Of a stretch of DNA of 64,000 nt, positions 46,186-47,934 are shown in pieces. This DNA is from Sphingomonadales bacterium (GTDB taxonomy: Bacteria; Pseudomonadota; Alphaproteobacteria; Sphingomonadales; Sphingomonadaceae). Positions within the stretch are counted from its first letter, which is position 1. Each line of letters starts with the position of its first letter. The DNA is taken from assembly GCA_947470185.1 (NCBI GenBank), contig CANIRZ010000005.1:1-64000 (forward strand), given 5' to 3'. The position numbers and the translations under genes are program-made. The notes beneath the pieces were generated by a model. The model was not told where the DNA came from. It saw nothing but the letters and a program-made list of their open reading frames with translations, and did no database searches.

Positions 46186-47706
46186 ATGGTCAATTTTGAT
46201 GTGAGCGCGCCAGTGATCATTGGCGTGGGTGAGGCAAGCCGGAAAGCCGTCGCGGGCGAATGGCCAGCTCCACGTGAATTGGCCGGGGCTGCGATTAAGG
46301 TTGCCCTTGCCGATACAGGGCAGCGCGATGCAGTTGCCGCCGCCATCGACACCATCGCAGCGATCCGCACCTTTGAGGACAGCGGCCTGAGCCTTGGCAC
46401 GGGGTCCCCTGATAATGCGCCTGAGGCTTTTGGCGCAGCGGGTGGGATCAGCGCGGCGCGGCTAATCTACGCAGATGTTGGCGGACAAAGCCCGCAAGCG
46501 ATGCTGAATGAACTGGCTGGCGATATCAGGCGGGGGGCTTGCGATATGGCAGTGCTTGTTGCGGCAGAAGCCACAGGAACCGCTAAACGCGCGCGCAAGG
46601 CTGGCGTGACCCTGGACTGGAGCCTTGCTTCTGACACATCGTTCGACAACCGGCTGTCGACTTTCCCGATATTGAGCCGCACCGAAATCCGCCATGGCAT
46701 CATTTCGATGCCGCTTGCTTACAGCCTGATTGAAAATGCGCGGCGGATTGGCTTAGGGTTGGATAGCGACGCATATACGGGTGAGATGGCGGCGTTATGG
46801 TCTGCCTTTTCCGCAAAAGCCGAAAAGCGGATCCACGCGCAATTCCCCGGCTTTCGTTCGCCTGAAGCCATGCAGAGCGACGACAATGCCAACTATCCGC
46901 TGACGGACATTTACCGCCGCTGGCATGTGGCGCAGGACGCGGTGGATTTGGGCAGTGCAATCATCTTGACCAGCGCAGGCACGGCGCGCGCATTGGGCGT
47001 ACCGCAAGACAAATGGGTCTGGCTAGCAGGCGCTGCCGAAGCGGCCGAACCGCCCTTGTCGGAGCGTGCGGTCATTCACCGTTCCGCCGCACTTGATTTT
47101 GCGATTCCTGCTGCGCTGGATCAGGCAGGACTGGGACCGACGGACCTTGGCCCAGTCGATATCTACAGCTGCTTTCCCTGCGCCGTATTCGCGGCGGTCG
47201 ACAGCATGCAAGACGCATCGCGGGCACTTGGCGATTATACGCTGACGGGCGGGCTCACTTTCTTCGGCGGCCCCGGCAATGGCTTTGCTATGTATAACAT
47301 TGCAGCGATGGTGGATGCCTTGCGGCAGGATGGTTCAAAACCTGCGATGGTAACCGCCAATGGCGGCGTGATGTCCAAACAAGCCGTGGGTATCTACACC
47401 GCAACGCAGCCGCGTATCGCGTGGTCCGGCGATGTGGCGAAGGGCTATGTTCCCACGGCAATCGCGCTTGATGATGCGCCGGAGGGCAAAGCGCGTGTAC
47501 GCAGCTTTGTGCGACCGGCGGGCAAGGACGGTTTTGGTCCGGCGACGGTTCTGCTGGAGTTAGAGCACGGCGCGCGGGCGATGGCGGTGATCGATTGTCC
47601 GGTGGATGCCGACCTTGGCAACGCGGTCGTTCACGTCACCCCGGGCGAAAAACGGCATATTGCGGCACTAGGGTCAGGACCACTTAAATCCACCTTCGCG
47701 GTTTGA
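46186..47706 (+). CDS. Thiolase-like (acetyl-CoA acetyltransferase/SCP2-type) protein
   Basis: VGQSPQAMLNEL-like thiolase fold, DIYSCFPCAVFAA, GGLTFFGGPGNGFAMYNIAAMV; C-terminus encoded by repeat element. Confidence 0.8.
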   Translation: MVNFDVSAPVIIGVGEASRKAVAGEWPAPRELAGAAIKVALADTGQRDAVAAAIDTIAAIRTFEDSGLSLGTGSPDNAPEAFGAAGGISAARLIYADVGGQSPQAMLNELAGDIRRGACDMAVLVAAEATGTAKRARKAGVTLDWSLASDTSFDNRLSTFPILSRTEIRHGIISMPLAYSLIENARRIGLGLDSDAYTGEMAALWSAFSAKAEKRIHAQFPGFRSPEAMQSDDNANYPLTDIYRRWHVAQDAVDLGSAIILTSAGTARALGVPQDKWVWLAGAAEAAEPPLSERAVIHRSAALDFAIPAALDQAGLGPTDLGPVDIYSCFPCAVFAAVDSMQDASRALGDYTLTGGLTFFGGPGNGFAMYNIAAMVDALRQDGSKPAMVTANGGVMSKQAVGIYTATQPRIAWSGDVAKGYVPTAIALDDAPEGKARVRSFVRPAGKDGFGPATVLLELEHGARAMAVIDCPVDADLGNAVVHVTPGEKRHIAALGSGPLKSTFAV

Positions 47707-47934
47707 GGCCATTTTGTTCAGTGCAAGGCGGTAAGCGCGGGACTTAGTGGTTCTAAGTCCAAGCTTGCCAACGCGGCAATGGACAAAATGGGTCAAATCC
47801 GAAGGACGCCAAAATGGCTTCGATCTCAAAGCAAAATGCCCTTGCAGGCAGAAGACTGCCTGCGGCGGACATTTTCCTTCGATATCTTTGCCATTTTGAC
47901 GCCGCGAATGTGGATTTAAGTGGTCCTGACCCTA
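47669..47934. mobile_element. Candidate non-autonomous MITE-like element with 33 bp TIRs
   Basis: TAGGGTCAGGACCACTTAAATCCAC(C/A)TTCGCGG at 47669-47701 and inverted at 47902-47934 (1 mismatch); TA at both outer edges; internal nested hairpins; no ORF. Confidence 0.75.

Follow-up and report, generated by a model that had tools for sequence, protein, structure and literature searches.

Bacterial MITEs are usually regarded as shrunken insertion sequences with an unimportant interior, and their partner transposases are often lost. REPINs and Br-REP are short palindromic intergenic repeats, and REPINs depend on Y1 transposases. Insertion sequences of the IS427 group of the IS5 family (e.g. IS1248 and ISPpa6) have, as seen in the present analysis, AGG(G/C)TCAGGAC(C/T) ends and use the TA of a YTAR target. 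Those of Paracoccus are 832–865 bp long, produce 2-bp duplications in all but one case, and in some instances have a two-ORF frameshift design (PMC3281130). RUP, Correia (NEMIS), and ERIC elements are short (∼100–155 bp), with terminal inverted repeats, TA edges, and stem loops of the 5'-3' ends but no arms, and their mobilization in trans is established or presumed; RUP has been linked to IS630 (PMC2229807). The CIR elements of Caulobacter and Brucella have two long hairpin arms with GANTC at the arm tip but no terminal stem (PMC2229807).

The element described here lies in the window, a 64,000-nt stretch of a Sphingomonadales bacterium (assembly GCA_947470185.1, contig CANIRZ010000005.1, positions 1–64,000, forward strand). 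It has the ends, the YTAR target, and the 2-bp duplication of the IS427-group insertion sequences, but is only 266 bp long and non-coding, where they encode a two-ORF transposase, and its 33-bp inverted ends are longer. With RUP, Correia, and ERIC it shares short length, terminal inverted repeats, and TA edges, but it has arms. Like the CIR elements it is alphaproteobacterial and has two long hairpin arms. However, it possesses a terminal stem of 32 bp and the window copy lacks GANTC, so it was not assigned to CIR; the motif is also rare in 20 copies (six occurrences seen versus about 20 expected by composition).

The 266-bp element and its insertion site

The sequence-only reading had described a 266-bp element with 33-bp terminal inverted repeats containing one mismatch, TA at both edges, nested hairpins, and no credible ORF, and all of these features were recovered (Table 1). 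The 33-nt inverted arms are 97% complementary, with the single mismatch, and the inner inverted arms lie at 47807–47841/47867–47901 and 47709–47724/47776–47791. No credible ORF was found inside the element. The predicted DNA fold of the element strand has an energy of −88.9 kcal/mol (z = −13.9 relative to shuffled sequences) and the predicted RNA fold an energy of −153.1 kcal/mol (z = −14.0); 0 of 200 shuffles were as stable, and a strong fold was predicted for both strands. This structure is not due to chance, since many other sites have this sequence too.

Table 1. Features of the element and the adjoining gene, in window coordinates
Feature	Position	Strand	Basis
Complete MITE, including one TA per edge	47669..47934	.	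Inverted ends; empty site GCGGCAC-TA-ATTGG in G017
Mobile part, GGG...CCC	47671-47932		
Left TA, target duplication	47669..47670	.	Single TA at empty site; most of 122 copies flanked by YT and AR
Right TA, target duplication	47933..47934	.	Single TA at empty site; flanks of 122 copies
Left terminal inverted repeat	47669..47701	+	Its AGGGTCAGGACC identical to ends of IS427-group insertion sequences
Right terminal inverted repeat	47902..47934	-	Inverted-repeat search
Arm Y hairpin (TTTGAGGCC...GGGTCAAA)	47702..47797	.	Fold; conserved architecture; own-partner pairing of outer helix
Central mini-hairpin TCC-GAA-GGA	47798..47806	.	At symmetry centre; CCNNNGG shared by almost all of 20 divergent copies
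Arm X hairpin (CGCCAAAATGG...CCATTTTGACG)	47807..47901	.	Inverted repeats; conserved architecture; covariation; own-partner pairing
Direct repeat GCCATTTTG, copy 1	47708..47716	+	Sequence; 82-bp copies
Direct repeat GCCATTTTG, copy 2	47890..47898	+	Sequence; 82-bp copies
Thiolase/acetyl-CoA acetyltransferase-like gene	46186..47706	+	NCBIfam PRK08257 group, below curated cut-off

The orthologous site in the nearest relative (G017), where the flanks are 96% identical, is empty and reads GCGGCAC-TA-ATTGGATAATC with a single TA, whereas the filled site in the window reads GCGGCAC-TAGGG...CCCTA-ATTGG. The joined flanks without the insert were matched gap-free and end-to-end in 20 genomes of the genus, namely the nearest relative and 19 others. 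YT precedes the left end in 103 of 122 distinct copies and AR follows the right end in 102 of them. We read these data as a TA target duplication, although an AGGG...CCCT segment placed between the T and the A, with no duplication, would produce an identical arrangement. Two copies have an off-consensus outermost base; their empty sites (CCTAGTC in L336; CTAC or CTAT in L359, L362, and L365) retain TA in some relatives and have diverged there in others, and the off-consensus edges are for this reason best read as one-sided changes.

The thiolase-like gene, for which no Pfam match was found, has a 3' end altered by the insertion, its last codons changing from ...HIAALIG (stop) to ...HIAALGSGPLKSTFAV (stop) with the stop codon moved. 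By crude ORF calls, 48 of 60 full-length copies are intergenic; copies often lie at gene 3' ends. About 11 of the 60, by the same crude calls, have the stop-codon TA of a facing ORF as their insertion site (e.g. L150:1708, L157:2629, L200:4349, and L015:1502). Because the TAG/CTA edges of the element restore a stop codon, insertion can leave the neighboring protein unchanged. At two other loci (L249 and L253; G027:C1:44500-47500 and G027:C34:15000-18000) a different IS427-type insertion sequence, with ends CTAGGTCACATACTCAT..., has inserted precisely at the outer TA of a 266-bp element, in both cases using the CTAG at its edge.

Distribution of the copies

The MAG from which the window derives (63% complete) contains a single full-length copy, and two more of its contigs have partial matches. 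Matches to the element were present in 26 of 37 genomes of the genus and in 0 of 24 other genomes of the same order. Full-length copies elsewhere are 75–98% identical to the window element and occupy unrelated sites with unrelated flanks; Sphingorhabdus WA123a alone has 90 end matches in each orientation. The search of the source and other sphingomonad genomes proposed in the sequence-only reading returned a dispersed, multi-copy element and not a single-copy sequence, and its search for an empty site returned the single TA of G017, where the window copy is bordered by TA at each end. The dispersed copies and the empty site demonstrate past mobility.

Outside the genus, an end-pattern scan of the genome collection found full-length copies in Rhizobiaceae, Hyphomicrobiales MAGs, a Micavibrio MAG, and other Alphaproteobacteria, and a plasmid search added copies from Sphingopyxis and Sphingobium. 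Most single terminal repeat matches outside the genus are lone or decayed ends beside unrelated genes. A strict class-wide pattern (exact 12-nt ends, 250–280 bp spacing) identified only one further full-length copy, of 264 bp, in 385 genomes, and so the family is patchy across the class and not universal. No phage record contained the element. A pair of terminal repeats ∼1 kb apart in G027 with an oxidoreductase-like gene between them was examined and not accepted as a transposon. Some copies in G016, G022, and G032 match at 75–79% over the interior only (query 28–239), a pattern that divergence or exchange of the ends would produce. Six contigs of Iodidimonas muriae (L097, L145, L151, L167, L175, and L209) break 66–67 bp past the start of a AGGGTCAGGACCTATTAAATTCGG end, which suggests a high-copy relative too repetitive for the assembly to resolve. 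No published description of the family was found in the open-access literature under its end sequence, IS427 together with MITE, cloverleaf MITEs, or alphaproteobacterial palindromic repeats; it is apparently an undescribed, abundant repeat family of Sphingorhabdus and other Alphaproteobacteria.

Transposases with element-type ends

AGGGTCAGGACC was found directly upstream of IS5-family transposase genes on a Marinosulfonomonas fragment and then on viral and plasmid contigs. The search for a transposase gene with element-type ends that the sequence-only reading had also proposed yielded two intact insertion sequences. The first (L265) is 855 bp long with AGGGTCAGGAC(C/T) on both sides and CT and AG as its left and right flanks. 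The second (L242), from the genus of the window, is 840 bp long with ends AGGGTCAGGACCCGTTAAA and AGGGTCAGGACTCATTGAT, flanks CTT and AGA, and ORFs of 123 and 111 amino acids that match PF13340 and DDE_Tnp_1. The first ORF of L265 passes the cut-off of the NCBIfam IS5 model; that of L242 scores 100.7 bits and so falls short of the 110 set for the whole protein, which is unsurprising given that it is only one half of a split gene. Three further loci (L294, L236, and L241) have the GGG end on one side, and other IS427-group insertion sequences have AGGCTCAGGAC ends and the same target, YT to the left and AR to the right. The ends that the element has in common with the autonomous L242 and L265 place it among IS5/IS427 MITEs, the agreement with the partner sequences extending over ∼12–20 nt of the element's 33.

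The sequence-only reading is thus supported in part. Its non-autonomous MITE with TA duplication and branched fold was supported, the element proving to be multi-copy with a single-TA empty site, but its affiliation with IS630/Tc1-mariner was not. For an IS630 transposase as the source of the TA duplication speaks that this duplication and the MITE form also typify IS630-linked repeats, RUP among them (PMC2229807). However, the transposases directly beside AGGGTCAGGACC ends belong to IS5/IS427 (the IS5 family being the only one seen there), and IS427-group insertion sequences of the same genus use the identical YTAR target. On the identity of both ends and target we favor IS5/IS427 over IS630 and consider an IS630 origin very improbable. 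If the element were instead of REP/REPIN type and mobilized by a Y1 (RAYT) transposase, this would agree with its palindromic form, mostly intergenic position, high copy number, and short hairpin derivatives. But Y1_Tnp is absent from the copy-rich genomes and present at all in only 4 of 45 genomes of the genus, a distribution on which we rejected a RAYT/Y1 origin; nor does Y1 insertion fit a filled site with TA at each edge and an empty site with one TA, and this origin is scarcely credible.

The element is very probably a MITE that an IS427-type transposase has mobilized in trans, the identity of this enzyme being inferred from the shared ends and target. The transposase would recognize the AGGGTCAGGACC ends and link them to YTAR target DNA, so that a TA borders the element at each edge, and the window copy would have landed in this way at the 3' end of the thiolase-like gene. 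PF13340 matches were present in 17 of 45 genomes of the genus; the MAG of the window (63% complete) and several copy-rich genomes gave none, and no genome was found to contain both an intact partner and the MITE.

The cloverleaf interior and its upkeep

Eighty of the 122 distinct copies are 264–273 bp long, the commonest other sizes being 82, 160–161, 178–180, and 205 bp. A 161-bp derivative in Xaviernesmea rhizosphaerae (L148:3662-3822) has the terminal stem and one arm only. Copies from Rhizobiaceae, the Micavibrio MAG, Sphingopyxis, and other Alphaproteobacteria are likewise 264–273 bp long and have a common cloverleaf plan, consisting of a 32-bp stem, a ∼97-nt arm, a central CCNNNGG, and a second ∼97-nt arm. 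Of twenty representatives below 88% identity, compared using a minimum-energy model, 14 fold as a ∼30-pair terminal stem, a ∼97-nt arm, a small central hairpin, and a ∼97-nt arm; the remaining six have the stem and both arms but no central hairpin, and the CCNNNGG-like motif is mostly present.

Folding and covariance analysis of the copies, another proposal of the sequence-only reading, showed that the covariation is real. RNAalifold gave 42 consensus pairs, 25 of them with two-sided changes, and the closing pair of the central mini-hairpin covaries between U-A and C-G. The outer 14 nt of the arms pair with their own partners at 0.80 and 0.76 compared with 0.43 for the partners of other copies; the arm strands were taken from predicted folds, which favors own pairing. 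Own-partner pairing far above the swapped-partner control nevertheless shows, within the modeled folds, that the paired arm strands have changed together. As modeled, the cloverleaf and its length are kept despite almost complete sequence change.

The 82-bp form is the exact product of deletion between the GCCATTTTG direct repeats. Because short derivatives are present at many sites the arms may be dispensable, though the short forms could be deletions in place.

The strong fold of both strands, the compensatory pair changes, and the mostly intergenic copies, often at gene 3' ends, would suit a structured RNA or transcription element that benefits the host, with mobility secondary, such as an mRNA 3'-end stabilizer, a bidirectional terminator, or a processed small RNA. 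A structured RNA was the alternative offered by the sequence-only reading, and the fold does covary. Nevertheless, the curated covariance models of Rfam gave no match to the element, presence is patchy, the sites are not conserved, armless derivatives persist, and a near-symmetrical fold of both strands is given by any palindrome. We regard a host-serving RNA as improbable. The cloverleaf is most likely a property of the element itself and not a host function, and its upkeep would come from element-level selection on the folded form, from templated correction of the palindrome at replication, or from both.

Quasi-palindromes are corrected by hairpin-templated template switching, and such correction would keep the arms self-complementary without selection. 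This passive upkeep concerns only the interior and is compatible with the MITE reading. Consistent with it, both sides of a pair have changed even in some states confined to one copy (16 of 93 singletons). On its own, however, it explains neither the tight length of 264–273 bp nor the central CCNNNGG kept across lineages with quite different arm sequences, and we consider it a real possibility that falls somewhat short of being probable. Selection and hairpin-templated correction can each yield a kept structure with sequence turnover, and the two could not be told apart from private versus shared variants within the genus. A tentative and rather unlikely reading of the modeled folds is that the cloverleaf is functional, its DNA or RNA fold and fixed size being under selection throughout the Alphaproteobacteria for a role in transposition; for example, a single-strand fold might present both ends to a DDE transposase at the replication fork.

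The element is a real MITE of the IS5/IS427 group, in which the mobility is ordinary and the conserved cloverleaf unusual. A 266-bp cloverleaf has been kept over large evolutionary distances amid sequence turnover, and the likely transposase family is identified. The repeat family is useful for annotating genomes of Sphingorhabdus and other Alphaproteobacteria, and the element can serve to test whether internal structure is important in a MITE. A functional cloverleaf, if true, would mean that the movement of a DDE-type MITE can depend on structure.
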